DNA of 30,938 nt from a virus. Position 1 is the first letter of the stretch. Each line of letters starts with the position of its first letter. Made by a program: the position numbers and the translations under genes. The notes under the pieces are model-generated. The model saw only the letters and a program-made list of their open reading frames with translations, searched no databases and was not told the DNA's origin. The stretch lies in the IMG/VR virus record IMGVR_UViG_3300007735_000599, positions 1-30,938 of that record, one strand, 5' to 3'. Of the stretch, positions 23,208 through 29,116 are shown piece after piece.

Positions 23208-23425
23208 AAAGCAAAAGTGGATATCAAATAAAGAAACCTGACACCGCAAAAATTGCTGGTGGTCCAAGTTTTCTAATTCGTCCTGCTGATGAAGATCCGC
23301 AGATGAGTAATGAAGAATGGGAAGCTGAACGAAAAGGTTGGGAACGTTATCTTCGTGAAACACCTCAAGGTCGTATTTGGCTTGAACGAGCTAGAAAAGC
23401 AGGAAACAAATTACGGGGCGTGTAA
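23204..23425 (+). CDS. Hypothetical charged protein (73 residues)
   Basis: The protein is highly charged, with a basic start (MKSKSGYQIKKPD), a central PSFLIRPADEDPQMS and a helical end (EEWEAERKGWERYLRETPQG, then RARKAGNKLR). It has ATGA overlap with the previous gene and a one-base TAATG overlap with the next. I do not recognise the family, and there is no membrane segment or metal site. The overlaps on both sides make it part of the same translational unit as the lysis genes. Confidence 0.75.
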   Translation: MKSKSGYQIKKPDTAKIAGGPSFLIRPADEDPQMSNEEWEAERKGWERYLRETPQGRIWLERARKAGNKLRGV

Positions 23426-23673
23426 TGGATCCTTCTTTTCTCCTTTCACTTTTCCTTGGTGCTACTAGCGTTGCTGGTGGCGCTTTTGCTTGGTCTCATA
23501 AGCGACACATGGAACTTGATCGGCGGATTGATTCGGTAGAGATGACGGTTCACAAAGAGTTTGTTAGAAAGGACGAGCTTATGCCCATGATGGACAGGAT
23601 CGACAAGCAGATCCAACACATCGACGAAAAACTCGACCGGATTCTTCTCAATGGCCGACATCTCACTCCGTGA
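23425..23673 (+). CDS. Membrane-anchored coiled-coil protein, spanin- or holin-like
   Basis: The 82-residue product has one N-terminal membrane segment (residues 4-23, SFLLSLFLGATSVAGGAFAW) followed by a charged region with heptad character (RRIDSVEMTVHKEFVRKDEL and MDRIDKQIQHIDEKLDRILL). An N-terminal anchor with a long periplasmic or cytoplasmic coiled coil is the layout of inner-membrane spanins (Rz-like, T7 gp18.5) and of some holin-associated proteins. I see no partner lipoprotein with a lipobox nearby. The gene overlaps the lysin start by 23 nt, which supports a lysis role. Confidence 0.75.
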   Translation: MDPSFLLSLFLGATSVAGGAFAWSHKRHMELDRRIDSVEMTVHKEFVRKDELMPMMDRIDKQIQHIDEKLDRILLNGRHLTP

Positions 23674-24751
23674 TGTAGCTAAGTACTACAACAATCAAGA
23701 GCATCAAAACTTTGCTTTGGATTTCCTTGAAGAGCACGTTGCTCCTGGAATCCTTGCAAAGTTTTCTGATTTATGGCGGTCAGGTCCCAAAAATACAATC
23801 CCAAGTAACGGCTCGTGGGATGGTGTAGTAGAGCTTGCTCGTGAAGCTGGAGCCAAGTTTCCAGAACTAGTAGCTGCTCAATGGGCATTAGAAAGTAATT
23901 GGGGTAGAAATACTTCTGGTACGCATAATTATTTCGGTCTAAAAGGTAAAGGTACAACAACTACAACAACGGAGTATGTCAATGGAGTACCTATTTCTAC
24001 TCGGGACGGGTTTCTTAATTTCTCTTCTCTTAAAGAGTGCGTTACATACCTCGTTGATCGGTGGTACAAAGATTTCAAACAATATTCCGGTGTTAATAAC
24101 GCAAAAAGTGCCACAGAAGCAGCAAAACAATTGGTAGCTCAGGGTTATGCAACTGACCCTAATTACGTCAACAAACTTGTATCAATAATTAATCGTCAAG
24201 TAATAACCCCGGAGGTACAACAAACGGGAAAGTTGCTAAAGGTACCTTACGAGTACCAGCTAGACAATGGACCAACGGGATATCGGGAGTGTTTCAGCTC
24301 TAGTTGTGCCATGGTGGCTGACTACTACGGCAAGATCAAAACCGATAGCGAATACAACAAGATCCGTAGCCGTTATGGAGATTCAACCAGCGCTGATGCA
24401 CAGCTCAAGACCCTAAAGCACCTTGGACTAGACGCTAAATTTATTCAAAACGGCACCCCAGAGCTTCTCAGACAAGAGATAGACGCTGGTAGGCCTGTTG
24501 TAGTCGGTTGGCTACATAAAGGCCCTGTAGCGTCTCCTAGTGGCTCTGGGCACTACTCCGTTGTAATTGGTTACACAGAAGGTGCTTGGATCCACCATGA
24601 TCCCAACGGTGAAGCTGATGTAGTCCGAGGTGGATACGTCAATCACACCAAAGGACAAGGAGTGGCGTATTCCAAAAAGAACTGGAATAAACGTTGGCTT
24701 GTTGAAGGACCTGGCTCTGGTTGGGCTATTTTGATCAAGAAACCGTCCTAA
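23651..24751 (+). CDS. Two-domain lysin: glucosaminidase plus C39-like cysteine peptidase
   Basis: Residues about 50-185 form a glucosaminidase (GH73-type) domain: AAQWALESNWGRNTSGTHNY with probable catalytic Glu81, then FGLKGKG and the YATDPNYVNKLVSIIN helix. Residues about 195-363 look like a papain-fold peptidase of the C39-like type: VPYEYQLDNGPTGYRECFSS with Cys214, GHYSVVIGY with His301 and HHDPNG with Asp317. One domain would cut glycan strands. The other could cut peptides in the wall or process a protein. The usual lysin of T7 is an amidase located elsewhere. There is no signal peptide, so it would need a holin. The alternative is a virion-associated muralytic protein, but the location favours the endolysin. 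Confidence 0.88.
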   Translation: MADISLRDVAKYYNNQEHQNFALDFLEEHVAPGILAKFSDLWRSGPKNTIPSNGSWDGVVELAREAGAKFPELVAAQWALESNWGRNTSGTHNYFGLKGKGTTTTTTEYVNGVPISTRDGFLNFSSLKECVTYLVDRWYKDFKQYSGVNNAKSATEAAKQLVAQGYATDPNYVNKLVSIINRQVITPEVQQTGKLLKVPYEYQLDNGPTGYRECFSSSCAMVADYYGKIKTDSEYNKIRSRYGDSTSADAQLKTLKHLGLDAKFIQNGTPELLRQEIDAGRPVVVGWLHKGPVASPSGSGHYSVVIGYTEGAWIHHDPNGEADVVRGGYVNHTKGQGVAYSKKNWNKRWLVEGPGSGWAILIKKPS

Positions 24752-24756
24752 TTACC

Positions 24757-24921
24757 ATGGACTTCTCTGATCCTTCTGTGCAAGCTGCTTTTTGGCTAAG
24801 TGCTTTTGCAGCTTCTGAAATCATTGCTGTATCTCCTCTCAAAGAAAACAGCCTCGTACAATTGGGGTTGAAACTCTTCCGTGTGATTTATGGCAGCCGC
24901 TCCAAAAAAGTCTCTAAATAA
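24757..24921 (+). CDS. Small hydrophobic protein, holin candidate
   Basis: From ATG 24757, 5 nt after the lysin stop, this frame gives 54 residues with one hydrophobic helix (VQAAFWLSAFAASEIIAVSP, residues 8-27), an amphipathic segment and a basic tail (YGSRSKKVSK). T7 places its holin (gp17.5) directly before the small terminase, as here. An upstream TTG in the same frame would extend it by 12 residues into the lysin gene, but the ATG is the natural start. It overlaps terS by 32 nt. The helix is weakly hydrophobic for a classical holin, so the call is by size and position. Confidence 0.7.
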   Translation: MDFSDPSVQAAFWLSAFAASEIIAVSPLKENSLVQLGLKLFRVIYGSRSKKVSK

Positions 24922-25162
24922 GACTGAAGGTCTGGCGTCAGAAGATGATCTTTATTCTCTTCATCGTCTGGTAGCCACCAAACTAATTGATCAGTTGAAT
25001 CGTGATGATGTGAAAGCATCTGACCTTGCCAACGCAATTAAGTTCCTTAAAGACCAAGGCATTACTGCTCTTAACGGTGGTGATGTGTCTGCTATTTCTG
25101 AGATGATTTCTGCACTGCCAGAAGTCGATCTGAAAAAAGTTAGGTCTTATATTAGTGCTTAG
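24890..25162 (+). CDS. terS: Terminase small subunit (T7 gp18-like)
   Basis: The product has 90 residues, practically the length of T7 gp18 (89). The pattern LYSLHRLVATKLIDQLNRDD, then KASDLANAIKFLKDQGITAL (residues 43-62) is typical of small terminase subunits of this group: a helical region that recognises DNA, followed by an oligomerisation part. It guides the large subunit to concatemeric DNA. The position just before the packaging ATPase, though separated from it by two inserted genes, supports the call. The start lies in the previous gene. Confidence 0.85.
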   Translation: MAAAPKKSLNKTEGLASEDDLYSLHRLVATKLIDQLNRDDVKASDLANAIKFLKDQGITALNGGDVSAISEMISALPEVDLKKVRSYISA

Positions 25163-25192
25163 GAACTAACCCTTCCTTTATGTACAAAGCAG

Positions 25193-25230
25193 AGCCCTCG
25201 GTATGGTGATTCGTTCGCCTGCCGGGGGCT
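25193..25230 (+). promoter_or_regulatory. Hairpin that holds the HNH start codon in its loop
   Basis: AGCCCTCGG (25193-25201) pairs with CCGGGGGCT (25222-25230), nine pairs with one T-G. The 20-nt loop contains ATG 25203. A nine-codon frame from ATG 25180 reads into it and stops at 25209. This could limit translation of the endonuclease until the ribosome or a factor opens it. The role is inferred. Confidence 0.45.
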
Positions 25231-25577
25231 TTGTCTATATGACCCCTGAGGCTGCTATGGCGAACCTACAAGCCCTCCAGCGTCGTGAAGCGGTTAAACA
25301 GTGGAGACAATCAATTAAAGAGGCCTTTGGCTGTAAATGCGCCTATTGCGGGGTCCAAAGCTCAGATCTAACTCTTGATCACGTCCACCCCAAAACAAAA
25401 GGTGGTGAGGATTTAGCAACCAATATTGTCCCAGCTTGTAAGCGTTGTAACCATGAAAAGGGTAGTTTTCATTGGAAAACTTGGTTTCAAGGCACCCCTG
25501 ACTATTGTGAGGAGCGAGCTACGCAAATCGAGCAATGGACGAACTACCGCCTATGCCCAATCTCAATCTCTCCATAG
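25203..25577 (+). CDS. HNH endonuclease in the packaging module
   Basis: The 124-residue product has the full motif of a zinc-stabilised HNH nuclease: CAYC (Cys46, Cys49), LTLDHVHP (Asp59, His60), KTKGGEDLATN and CKRCNHEKG (Cys79, Cys82, His84). The C-terminal part FHWKTWFQGTPDYCEERATQ is common in free-standing phage HNH proteins. Phage HNH enzymes beside terminases can take part in cutting DNA during packaging; others are homing endonucleases that invade phage genes. Its location between the two terminase subunits allows both views. It overlaps the next gene by 43 nt. Confidence 0.92.
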   Translation: MVIRSPAGGFVYMTPEAAMANLQALQRREAVKQWRQSIKEAFGCKCAYCGVQSSDLTLDHVHPKTKGGEDLATNIVPACKRCNHEKGSFHWKTWFQGTPDYCEERATQIEQWTNYRLCPISISP

Positions 25578-25747
25578 AACAGCAGCTACGTGTGGAGAGG
25601 ATGAAGCGAGATATTCCAAATGCCAAACGAGAAGATCTGGAGAAGTACCTGCTGCATTTCATCCAAATGAATTTGATCCTGCAGAATAACCTGAGCCAAG
25701 TATTCAAGTGGGCTCACGAAAATGCCAAGGACTTCAAAGCAAACTGA
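25535..25747 (+). CDS. nblA: NblA-like phycobilisome degradation protein
   Basis: The 70-residue protein contains NLSIEQQLRVERMKRD (residues 10-25) followed by a second helix, REDLEKYLLHFIQMNLILQN (33-52). This is the layout of NblA: a conserved LSLEQQ start, a short turn and a second helix ending near a KW/KH motif (here FKWAHEN). NblA links phycobiliproteins to the Clp protease so that cyanobacteria lose their antennae under starvation; several cyanophages carry it. Starting at Met7 (25553) would give 64 residues, nearer the usual 55-65. It overlaps HNH by 43 nt and terL by 26 nt. The match is by eye, so a generic helical-hairpin protein remains possible. Confidence 0.6.
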   Translation: MDELPPMPNLNLSIEQQLRVERMKRDIPNAKREDLEKYLLHFIQMNLILQNNLSQVFKWAHENAKDFKAN

Positions 25748-27476
25748 GCAAATTATTGCGGATGCTGTAGCCAGCTTTCCCGTCTTTGCTACTCACCTTT
25801 GGCACTACCTTCGGCTTCCTAGCCCTACACCAGTTCAATACCAAGTAGCTGACTACCTACAAGAAGGTCCTAGTCGGCGCATCATCATGGCGTACAGGGG
25901 TTGCGGTAAAAGTTTCCTGACAGCTGGTTATGTGCTGTGGCGACTGCGTAGAGATCCAGACTGTAAGGTTCTCGTTATCTCTGCAGCACAGGACCGTGCG
26001 GATGCGTTCTCCGTCTTTTGTCATGACCTCCTCCGTAACTGGTTCATGGTCAAGGACCTTTTCCCTAGCGATACCCAACGGTTCTCAAAAGTTGCTTTTG
26101 ACGTTTACGGGGCAAAACCAGATCAATCTCCCTCTGTGCGTTCAAGCGGCATCTTTGGGCAAATTACTGGCTCTCGTGCTGATCTCATCGTTGCAGACGA
26201 CGTGGAGACACCCCAGTCCTGTGAAACCCAACTCATCCGAGACAAACTGCGTGAATCCATTAAAGAGTTTGACTCGGTGATCAAGCCGGGTGGGGAGATC
26301 GTGTTCCTTGGTACTCCTCACACCCAAGACAGTGTTTACGCAAAGCTTGAGGTCTCTGGTTACGAAGTCAGGATTTGGCCTGCGCTGTACCCAACCAATA
26401 AGAAGTTCAAGGACTACTACGGTGACCGCCTGGCCCCCAGGATCAAAGCTGACCTTTCAGCTGACCCTGATCTAGCAGGCCACCCCGTAGATCCCAAACG
26501 TTTTGATTGGCCTGAACTGGAAGCCAGACAGCTTTCCATCGGTCGTTCAACGTTCAACCTGCAGTTCCTGCTGGATATCTCGCTGAGTGATGAGGAACGG
26601 TTTCCTCTCAAGCTCAGAGATCTCTGTGTGTTCCGCTTAAACCGTGAGCAAGGTCCTAACAAAGTCGTGTGGATGGCTAACGGCGATAAAGCCCTAGACC
26701 TTCCTTCTGTTGGCCTTCATGGTGATCTTTTCTACAAACCGGCCCAAATAGGAGATGAGTTTCTTGAATACACGGGCGTTGTTATGTCCGTTGACCCCTC
26801 TGGACGCGGCAGTGATGAGCTTGGCTATGCGGTAGTTGCATATTTGAACGGCAACCTTTTCCTTCTTGCTAGCGGTGGCCTTCGGGGTGGTTACAGCGAA
26901 CCGAACCTCAAGAAGCTTGCTCTCATCGCTAAGGAGTACAAAGTCAAGCAGATATTGGTTGAAAGCAACCTCGGCCTCGGGATGTTCTCTGAGCTTCTCA
27001 AGCGCTACCTCGGCACGATCTACCCCTGCAGCGTTGAAGAGGTCCGACATACAAAGCAAAAGGAACTCCGCATCATCGACACCCTTGAGCCTGTCCTTAA
27101 TCAACACCGGCTCATGGTCGATACGGACGTAATCCTTCATGACCTCTCCTCCACGGAAAGCTACCCAAGCGAAACTCGTAGCCAATACCAACTCTTCTTT
27201 CAGCTCACTCGGATTACCAAAGAGAAAAACAGCCTCAGACATGACGACCGACTAGACGCTCTTGCTATGGCGGTTCAATACTTTACAGAGTCCATGGCTC
27301 TTACGGAACAAAAGGCCATCGATAACCGCCTTAGAGAGCAGTGGGAGCTAGAGCGTAAGTTCATCCAAGGTGACGGAGGTTTATCAATTGATGCCATTGG
27401 ATACGCTAATTCTCTAGAAGACCTCCAGAAGGCTCTGTACGCCTCTTCAGGGGGTTGTAACTGGTTAGATAGCTGA
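25722..27476 (+). CDS. terL: Terminase large subunit (T7 gp19-like DNA packaging motor)
   Basis: The 584-residue protein has an ATPase domain with Walker A AYRGCGKS (57-64) and Walker B LIVADD (155-160), the latter followed by VETPQSCET. The nuclease domain is RNase H-like, with SVDPSGRGSDE (Asp358), ILVESN (Glu414) and RHDDRLDALAMAV (Asp508, Asp509 and Asp512 candidates). T7 gp19 has 586 residues, so this copy is full length. It docks on the portal, pumps DNA into the prohead and cuts concatemers. The start overlaps the NblA-like gene by 26 nt. Immediately after its stop begins the repeat-rich gene-free stretch. Confidence 0.97.
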   Translation: MPRTSKQTEQIIADAVASFPVFATHLWHYLRLPSPTPVQYQVADYLQEGPSRRIIMAYRGCGKSFLTAGYVLWRLRRDPDCKVLVISAAQDRADAFSVFCHDLLRNWFMVKDLFPSDTQRFSKVAFDVYGAKPDQSPSVRSSGIFGQITGSRADLIVADDVETPQSCETQLIRDKLRESIKEFDSVIKPGGEIVFLGTPHTQDSVYAKLEVSGYEVRIWPALYPTNKKFKDYYGDRLAPRIKADLSADPDLAGHPVDPKRFDWPELEARQLSIGRSTFNLQFLLDISLSDEERFPLKLRDLCVFRLNREQGPNKVVWMANGDKALDLPSVGLHGDLFYKPAQIGDEFLEYTGVVMSVDPSGRGSDELGYAVVAYLNGNLFLLASGGLRGGYSEPNLKKLALIAKEYKVKQILVESNLGLGMFSELLKRYLGTIYPCSVEEVRHTKQKELRIIDTLEPVLNQHRLMVDTDVILHDLSSTESYPSETRSQYQLFFQLTRITKEKNSLRHDDRLDALAMAVQYFTESMALTEQKAIDNRLREQWELERKFIQGDGGLSIDAIGYANSLEDLQKALYASSGGCNWLDS

Positions 27477-27482
27477 AAGGGG

Positions 27483-27515
27483 TTAGAGGGGCCTTAGAGG
27501 GGCTTCTAGGGGCCT
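27483..27515 (+). repeat. Three 11-bp tandem GAGGGGC repeats after terL
   Basis: TTAGAGGGGCC (27483-27493), TTAGAGGGGCT (27494-27504) and TCTAGGGGCCT (27505-27515) follow the terL stop without spacing. They are GC-rich, unlike the CTTAAAG array just downstream. Together they open a 301-bp stretch with no credible gene (27477-27777). Confidence 0.8.
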
Positions 27516-27542
27516 CTGAGCGGGCTTACGTCCAAAGACCCC

Positions 27543-27741
27543 CTTTAAGGGATACGACAAAGAGAGACCTCTTGACAGGGGTGGTTAGAGTTGTACTTAA
27601 AGGTACTTAAAGATACTTAAAGAGTCTTTCTTAAAGAGGTCTTTAGCTGTCTCCTCTTTAAGGTACTTAAAGACCCTTTAAGACAGTTTTAAAAGTGGTC
27701 TTAAAGAGGTCTTTAACCGTTTACTTAAAGGCCACTTAAAG
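27543..27741 (+). repeat. CTTAAAG repeat array (short-repeat region, T7 SRL/SRR-like)
   Basis: CTTAAAG occurs eight times on the + strand (starting at 27596, 27606, 27616, 27630, 27666, 27700, 27724 and 27735) and three times inverted as CTTTAAG (27543, 27656, 27676). The first three form a perfect 10-bp tandem (TACTTAAAGR, 27594-27623). CTTAAAGAGG (27630-27639) forms a perfect 10-bp inverted repeat with 27653-27662. TCTTAAAGAGGTCTTTA is repeated at 27629 and 27699. T7 has arrays of CCTAAAG next to its terminal repeats, and this lies where the T7 right-end array lies, after terL. A TTGACA box is at 27572-27577. Role in concatemer processing or transcription is inferred. Confidence 0.8.
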
Positions 27742-27777
27742 AGTCCTGTAGTACTCTTAGGTGCCTTTTAACTACTG

Positions 27778-28446
27778 ATGAGAATGGCTAGCAGTTCAGA
27801 GGGTACCCTCCCTCCTGTTGCTTTGATCACCGTTACACCAGATGCAGAGGAGTTGCTGGTGTACATGGCTAGGGTCTCTAATCCAGTTAATCAAGGCGTA
27901 GGTCAACGATCAGAACGATTGATCCAATACCTCATAGACCACAAGCATTGGTCTCCGTTTGAGATGGTTCATATGGTGGTACAAATCAATACCACTCGTA
28001 GTGTTGCTGCTCAGATCCTTAGGCATAGGTCTTTTAGCTTTCAAGAGTTCTCTCAGAGATACGCAGATACAAACCTTCTTGGTTCTCCTAGAGCTCCTCA
28101 CCTCAGACGACAAGACAGTACTAATAGGCAGAACAGTATTGATGATTTGACTGCTGATAAAACTCAGATCTTTTACAGACGTATTAATCAGCTGTTTGAA
28201 GAGTCTCAAGACTTGTACAGAGAAATGGTCTCTGTTGGTATTGCTAAAGAGTGTGCAAGGGATGTACTTCCTTTGGCTACTCCGACTCGGATGTATATGG
28301 CTGGTAGTGTTCGGAGTTGGATTCATTACATAGATCTACGGTCTCAAAATGGGACTCAGATGGAACATATGAATATTGCTAACGAGGTAAAACGGATCTT
28401 TTGCAGAGAGTTTCCTACTATTGGTAAAGCACTGAACTGGGTCTAG
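27778..28446 (+). CDS. thyX: Flavin-dependent thymidylate synthase ThyX
   Basis: ThyX makes dTMP from dUMP with FAD, NADPH and methylene-tetrahydrofolate, and many cyanophages carry it for DNA synthesis. The 222-residue protein has the ThyX signature RHRSFSFQEFSQRY (residues 82-95; RHR, seven residues, Ser92), the upstream HWSPFEMVHMVVQINTTRSV segment and the C-terminal RSWIHYIDLRSQNGTQMEHM part with Arg residues that bind dUMP. ATG 27778 or 27784 may be the start (MRMASS); neither has a good ribosome site. The gene follows the repeat array, not the DNA replication genes as is usual. A tiny HNH-like gene follows after 2 nt. Confidence 0.95.
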   Translation: MRMASSSEGTLPPVALITVTPDAEELLVYMARVSNPVNQGVGQRSERLIQYLIDHKHWSPFEMVHMVVQINTTRSVAAQILRHRSFSFQEFSQRYADTNLLGSPRAPHLRRQDSTNRQNSIDDLTADKTQIFYRRINQLFEESQDLYREMVSVGIAKECARDVLPLATPTRMYMAGSVRSWIHYIDLRSQNGTQMEHMNIANEVKRIFCREFPTIGKALNWV

Positions 28447-28448
28447 CT

Positions 28449-28670
28449 GTGGCTGAGCGTAACTACCGCAAGGAATACGACAACTACCACTCAAAGCCTG
28501 AGCAAAGGGAGAACAGGAGTAGCCGTAATAAGGCTCGTAGGAAGCTCAAGAAGGCTGGGTATGACCTTAGGGGTAAGGATGTGGACCATAAGGATGGAAA
28601 CCCTAAGAACAATGGGCACTCAAACCTCAGGATTCAGAGCCCTAGCGTGAATAGAAGCAGGAATAAGTAG
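28449..28670 (+). CDS. Small HNH-like protein, GTG start
   Basis: From GTG 28449 this frame gives 73 residues: a basic start (AERNYRKEYDNYHSKPEQRE), a Lys/Arg-rich helix, then DVDHKDGNPKNNGHSNLRIQ and SPSVNRSRN. The DHxDGNxxNNxxSNLR pattern is the core of HNH_3-type nucleases. There are no zinc cysteines, and the protein is short. Such proteins are common in cyanophages, and activity is uncertain. It follows thyX by 2 nt, and its stop codon lies inside the terminator stem. GTG is the only start that includes the conserved RNYRKEYDNYHSKPEQ part. Confidence 0.85.
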   Translation: MAERNYRKEYDNYHSKPEQRENRSSRNKARRKLKKAGYDLRGKDVDHKDGNPKNNGHSNLRIQSPSVNRSRNK

Positions 28671-28696
28671 GTCCTAAGGGGCCTGCTTTTTTTTTT
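28666..28696 (+). terminator. Intrinsic terminator after thyX and the HNH-like gene
   Basis: AGTAGGTCC (28666-28674), loop TAAG, GGGCCTGCT (28679-28687) makes nine pairs (two G-T), followed by ten T (28687-28696). It is the clearest intrinsic terminator in the window and includes the last codons of the HNH-like gene. It probably ends the late transcript. Confidence 0.9.
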
Positions 28697-29116
28697 ATCG
28701 ATGGGTAAAAGGGTTTTGCTTCAGATTTTTGAGCCCTAGTTAGCGCCTTGACCCGCCGCCGGAACCCCCTGGGGGGGCTATAGGGCCGCCTTAATGAGAA
28801 CAGGTCGCAATTGCAGGGCTGTCTAGGGGGTCCTAAAGCGGAATCAGTATGAGTTAGGAGGGATCTGGGAAGGTCCTGGGCCTGGGGGCATATATACGCG
28901 CGCGCAAGGCCACAACTAGAAGCCTCTAGAAGCCTCTCTAAGGCCCTCTAAATCCTCTCTATACCCTGCCATACCTAGAAGCCTCTCCAAGGCCCTTACA
29001 GCGCCTCCTAGCTCCTTTGTAACGCTTTACAACAAAAGCCCTAGCCTTGCCAGCTTCAGGCTTTACCTTGGCCCTGTCAGGCGCAGTCCTGGCCCTTTTC
29101 CTTCACCTCTAACCCA
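28697..29116. other. GC-rich gene-free region with repeats and a Z-DNA-prone tract
   Basis: I see no credible gene in these 420 bp. They hold a C5-T-G7 run (28765-28777), a CTATAGGG (28778-28785), a run of 19 alternating purines and pyrimidines (28888-28906, ATATATA next to CGCGCGC) and a repeat family starting CTAGAAGCCTCT. The repeat begins at 28916, 28926 and 28975; the last two copies match over 22 bases (28926-28947, 28975-28996) with one mismatch. It could be an origin, promoter region or genome end; nothing decides between these. Confidence 0.6.
28916..28996 (+). repeat. CTAGAAGCCTCT repeat family
   Basis: Three copies of CTAGAAGCCTCT: 28916-28927, overlapping 28926-28937, and 28975-28986. 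The second and third continue alike to AAGGCCCT. Related GGCCCT and CCTCT words lie between them. Function unknown. Confidence 0.75.

Follow-up and report, generated by a model that had tools for sequence, protein, structure and literature searches.

An NblA-like gene between the terminase genes of a P-RSP2-like cyanopodovirus

Cyanobacteria use NblA to dismantle their light-harvesting antennae, and the presence of an nblA-like gene between the two terminase genes of a phage raises the question of whether it is a true member of the family and, if so, what such a protein would do in the packaging module. The gene lies in an entire IMG/VR virus record, that of an uncultured cyanobacterial virus and not a cellular genome; the whole stretch analyzed (30,938 nucleotides) is called the window hereafter. 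On the + strand, an ORF of 70 codons opens with an ATG at 25535 and its stop codon ends at 25747, giving the product MDELPPMPNLNLSIEQQLRVERMKRDIPNAKREDLEKYLLHFIQMNLILQNNLSQVFKWAHENAKDFKAN. As claimed in the first-pass annotation, the ORF overlaps both of its neighbors, an HNH endonuclease gene by 43 nt and terL by 26 nt. The features of the region are as follows:

24890 to 25162, + strand: terS, terminase small subunit or DNA maturase A (PF11123, E = 2.7e-14)
25203 to 25577, + strand: HNH endonuclease gene, running 43 nt into nblA (PF14279, E = 9.9e-12; PF01844, E = 1.6e-10)
25535 to 25747, + strand: nblA-like gene, 70 amino acids, NblA family (PF04485, 26.9 bits; PDB 3cs5, E = 4.2e-6), under purifying selection
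25565 to 25699, + strand: part of the nblA-like gene matched by PF04485 (profile positions 1–45 of 50)
25722 to 27476, + strand: terL, T7-type terminase large subunit, sharing its first 26 nt with the 3' end of nblA (PF22530, E = 1.2e-38; phrog_38, E = 1.3e-108)
27778 to 28446, + strand: thyX, flavin-dependent thymidylate synthase, the next gene downstream (PF02511, E = 2e-45)
28665 to 28688, + strand: terminator-like hairpin of 10 pairs followed by a T run (consensus match only)

The first-pass annotation had described the product as NblA-like, and profile searches upheld this description. PF04485 (NblA) was the sole Pfam family above its curated cut-off (E = 6.6e-6; 26.9 bits against 25), and all 36 distinct relatives examined also matched it. 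Likewise, the only sequence match in the PDB was the NblA of Synechococcus elongatus (3cs5), with an E-value of 4.2e-6 for the single protein and 7.3e-10 with the profile; the two proteins have in common an LPPxPxxxLSxEQQ start and a REDLE turn region, and are about 31% identical over 49 residues (hand count on the alignment). The earlier statement that the sequence has drifted far from cellular NblA needs to be nuanced in view of this identity and of the LPPxP start shared with the S. elongatus protein. Searches starting from both sides agreed: when the profile of the phage proteins was compared with 292 cyanobacterial genomes, its best matches fell on loci also recognized as nblA by PF04485 in an independent search (e.g., G048, G157, and G199), and a profile of cellular NblA gave the window protein 30.8 bits, against 16.0 bits for the best of its 10,000 shuffled versions and 6.5 bits for the next-ranking ORF of the window. 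The latter profile was seeded with S. elongatus NblA (residues 2–50 taken from the alignment) and an approximate Anabaena-type NblA, and its final version was built anew from 38 matches in cyanobacterial genomic loci; a genome-contig search with S. elongatus NblA found one cyanobacterial relative. Because the PF04485 score exceeds the gathering score, 25535–25747 is a real gene and no chance frame, and these comparisons place its product in the NblA family. The NCBIfam equivalog NF045916 (phycobilisome degradation protein NblA) was also matched (E = 1.3e-5), at 25.3 bits and thus far under its 100-bit cut-off; we consequently assign the protein to the broader family and not to the equivalog, limiting the claim to family membership and an inferred function. 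PHROGs contains no family for the window protein.

The resemblance to S. elongatus NblA and other cyanobacterial NblA proteins extends, in addition to these two motifs, to the size, the presence of two helices, and a basic C-terminal end. Residues L12, S13, E15, and Q16 are invariant in 36 relatives, and the same columns are conserved in cellular NblA. The phage protein differs by its longer tail (70 amino acids in total) and by its C-terminal end: KHxW is found in most cellular proteins, which terminate in KHxWGL, whereas the lysine and the tryptophan are adjacent here, within FKWA. W59 is invariant in the phage lineage, and nearly all relatives share K58. The nutrient-stress regulation of the cellular gene is another difference, as it is not visible for the phage gene. 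AlphaFold2, run on the alignment, predicted helices at residues 14–29 and 32–67 (mean pLDDT 86), so that the 70-residue product has the two-helix layout expected of the roughly 60-residue NblA chain; a control prediction for cellular NblA gave the same layout, with helices 11–25 and 29–56. The LSIEQQ start, the two-helix layout, and the Lys-Trp pair near the end (K58-W59), all of which had been pointed out from the letters, were thus recovered. Foldseek searches of the PDB and BFVD gave no significant match for the phage protein, and the cellular NblA control likewise retrieved no NblA from the PDB, so that this comparison has no weight for or against the fold.

The gene is under purifying selection. 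Outside the overlaps, the median dN/dS across relatives was 0.13, a value that is approximate because synonymous sites are saturated in many pairs, and all usable pairs were below 0.5; in the same segment, 45 of 47 third codon positions were variable, against 18 of 47 second positions.

The location in the packaging module, which had been singled out as unusual, proved to be fixed throughout a lineage. In all 80 related viral contigs (59–96% identity), nblA lies upstream of terL and its start is overlapped by the HNH gene, wherever those sides are covered. The extent of the overlaps varies little: 43 nt between HNH and nblA in 71 of 81 sequences, and 26, 17, or 14 nt between nblA and terL in 72 of 81. 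Four contigs (L057, L062, L066, and L080) have several hundred extra bases between nblA and terL, nblA itself being intact. A minus-strand ORF in this insertion (L057, 3493–3909; L080, 3616–4035) resembles endonuclease VII, as judged by eye, and the insertion of such an ORF between nblA and terL in some relatives suggests that homing endonucleases preferentially enter the region from terS to terL.

Genes for the connector, head, tail, and endolysin, typical of a T7-like phage, lie upstream of the packaging genes. The endolysin gene (23651–24751) encodes a glucosaminidase domain (PF01832) fused to a C39/C70-like cysteine peptidase domain (PF13529, PF12385), and just one of these two halves aligns in some relatives. 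A second small HNH gene (PF13392, E = 2.5e-6) is found at 28449–28670, directly 3' of thyX, which brings to two the HNH genes near terL and thyX, counting the one that precedes nblA. We found no sigma-70-type promoter on the + strand of 23400–28700 which, together with the strong terminator-like hairpin, fits read-through from an upstream phage promoter; the hairpin would close an nblA-terL-thyX unit.

Synechococcus has phycobilisomes and Prochlorococcus is devoid of them, a difference that bears on the comparison with the phage nblA genes already known. These are established in the freshwater phages Ma-LMM01, MaMV-DC, and PaV-LD, in which they are expressed during infection with loss of phycobilin, and the expression of phage nblA in cyanobacteria leads to phycobilin loss (as outlined in PMC9602691). 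These three phages share a phage-borne nblA with the window phage, but they are of unrelated types and infect other hosts. In addition, Nadel et al. (2019) predicted nblA in 14 cyanopodovirus strains and one cyanomyovirus (as summarized in PMC9602691). The copies of T7-like cyanopodoviruses (S-TIP37, S-RIP2, KBS-P-1A, S-SRP01, and S-CBP types) are comparable to the window gene in that they are short genes of T7-like Synechococcus phages that overlap a neighbor, and the three exonuclease-linked copies tested all exceeded the PF04485 cut-off. They are, however, 27–41% identical to the window protein and, instead of lying in the packaging module, they overlap the exonuclease gene at its 3' end, within the replication block. 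Judged by its position, the window gene would thus belong to the late (packaging) expression class, unlike the exonuclease-linked copies. The family is not confined to phages of hosts without phycobilisomes, an outcome that would have spoken against the NblA reading, as members occur in phages isolated on Synechococcus. In the Prochlorococcus phage P-SSP7 (L220), an uncharacterized ORF overlapping the exonuclease gene (~956–1280) is a diverged nblA relative, 53% identical to the S-TIP37 copy; the ORF as annotated has no Pfam match, and its frame weakly matches the cellular profile. Because such diverged relatives exist in Prochlorococcus phages, there is no strict match between nblA and host antenna type over all cyanopodoviruses. 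In the sequence deposited for the Synechococcus phage S-RIP1 (L219), the exonuclease-linked nblA (~1300–1620) is split over two frames and is immediately followed by an HNH gene. The split may reflect either decay or a sequencing error. A limited literature search of titles and abstracts retrieved no report of nblA in a packaging module or in the P-RSP2-like lineage; what is new here is this position and this lineage, phage nblA itself being already known.

The nearest annotated phage is the Prochlorococcus phage P-RSP2, with TerL and connector both 85.6% identical to those of the window, the next best being at about 52%; by these proteins, the window phage is a P-RSP2-like cyanopodovirus. P-RSP2 has been treated as a lone outlier clade among cyanopodoviruses (PMC9860041). 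The two phages have the same terS-HNH-terL order, whereas P-RSP2 has a lower G+C content and a host without phycobilisomes, and no nblA was found anywhere in its 42,257-base record. In a TerL tree of 83 sequences, the presence of nblA maps as a single change, separating 49 sequences with the gene from 34 without it, P-RSP2 being among the latter. Roseobacter, Limnohabitans, Prochlorococcus MPP-C, and uncultured phage outgroups had branches too long for a reliable root, and a gain of nblA is therefore not separable from a loss in this tree. Most of the P-RSP2-like contigs without nblA (L091–L125) also have no HNH gene, terS running almost straight into terL, while P-RSP2 and L086–L090 have retained HNH alone.

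Two explanations of the gene that dispense with NblA function can be weighed against these data. Its place between terS and terL, overlapping a gene at either end in every contig that reaches both neighbors, would suit an accessory or regulatory protein of the terminase whose likeness to NblA is due to chance. Profile matches with NblA are nevertheless obtained in both directions, P-RSP2 and its fellow clade members package their DNA without nblA, and the homologs in other cyanophages are located at the exonuclease gene and not near the terminase. We rejected this explanation, which is very improbable, on account of the two-way profile matches and of nblA-less packaging in the P-RSP2 clade. 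Alternatively, nblA could be a nonfunctional passenger carried in with the neighboring HNH homing endonuclease, as HNH overlaps it in nearly all contigs covering both and four contigs show a further insertion right after nblA, endonuclease VII-like where it was read. This is contradicted by the selection test (omega about 0.13), and P-RSP2 and its nearest kin keep HNH without nblA, which indicates that the two genes are separable. A neutral passenger was thus also rejected, and we hold it to be the least credible of the explanations considered.

The two sides of the tree differ in base composition, with a median G+C of 39% for the nblA-less side and 47% for the nblA side. A difference of this kind would follow if the former infected Prochlorococcus and the latter Synechococcus-like hosts. 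The host of the window phage probably has phycobilisomes, to judge from its Synechococcus-like G+C and from the sister clade without nblA, which holds a Prochlorococcus phage. A search for psbA as a further clue to the host found none in the window or in 12 related records.

It may also be asked whether the protein still acts on phycobilisomes. An adaptor that is NblA by descent could have been retargeted so that it mainly supplies Clp with different proteins of the host (those of the photosystems or regulatory ones, for example), in agreement with the many conserved columns at which the C-terminal half departs from cellular NblA and with the persistence of diverged relatives in phages of Prochlorococcus, which has no phycobilisomes. 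On the other hand, the N-terminal signature does not vary, and a Prochlorococcus phage is found in the lineage that lacks nblA, as expected if phycobilisomes are the target; we therefore regard retargeting as unlikely. With high confidence, we favor a phage nblA whose product would be made with the packaging proteins, bind the phycobiliproteins of the infected host, and pass them to its ClpC protease, so that the antenna would be dismantled. Dimerization, binding to phycobilisomes and ClpC, and antenna loss are proposed by analogy with characterized NblA proteins. Cellular NblA hairpins pair into a four-helix bundle, and the short helical hairpin predicted for this T7-like (P-RSP2-like) cyanophage would be of that type. 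The dismantling of the antenna would free its amino acids for virion production. In a study of a recombinant T7-like cyanophage, later than the predictions mentioned above, viral NblA reportedly speeds infection and lowers host light harvesting. The cellular protein serves ClpC as an adaptor for phycobiliproteins, to which it binds (PMC7966870). A more specific scenario, which we put forward tentatively and hold to be possible rather than probable, is that P-RSP2-like cyanophages acquired nblA independently of the other cyanopodoviruses and use it in the late packaging class, timing antenna breakdown to virion assembly, its presence in the clade tracking host phycobilisomes.

With these data, the range of phage-borne nblA comes to include a cyanopodovirus clade whose only known isolate does not carry the gene. 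The position of nblA in the genome differs from that of the known cyanopodovirus copies and is apparently a late one. Moreover, the clean split between presence and absence within one clade offers a natural comparison of when, and in which hosts, dismantling the antenna pays the phage.
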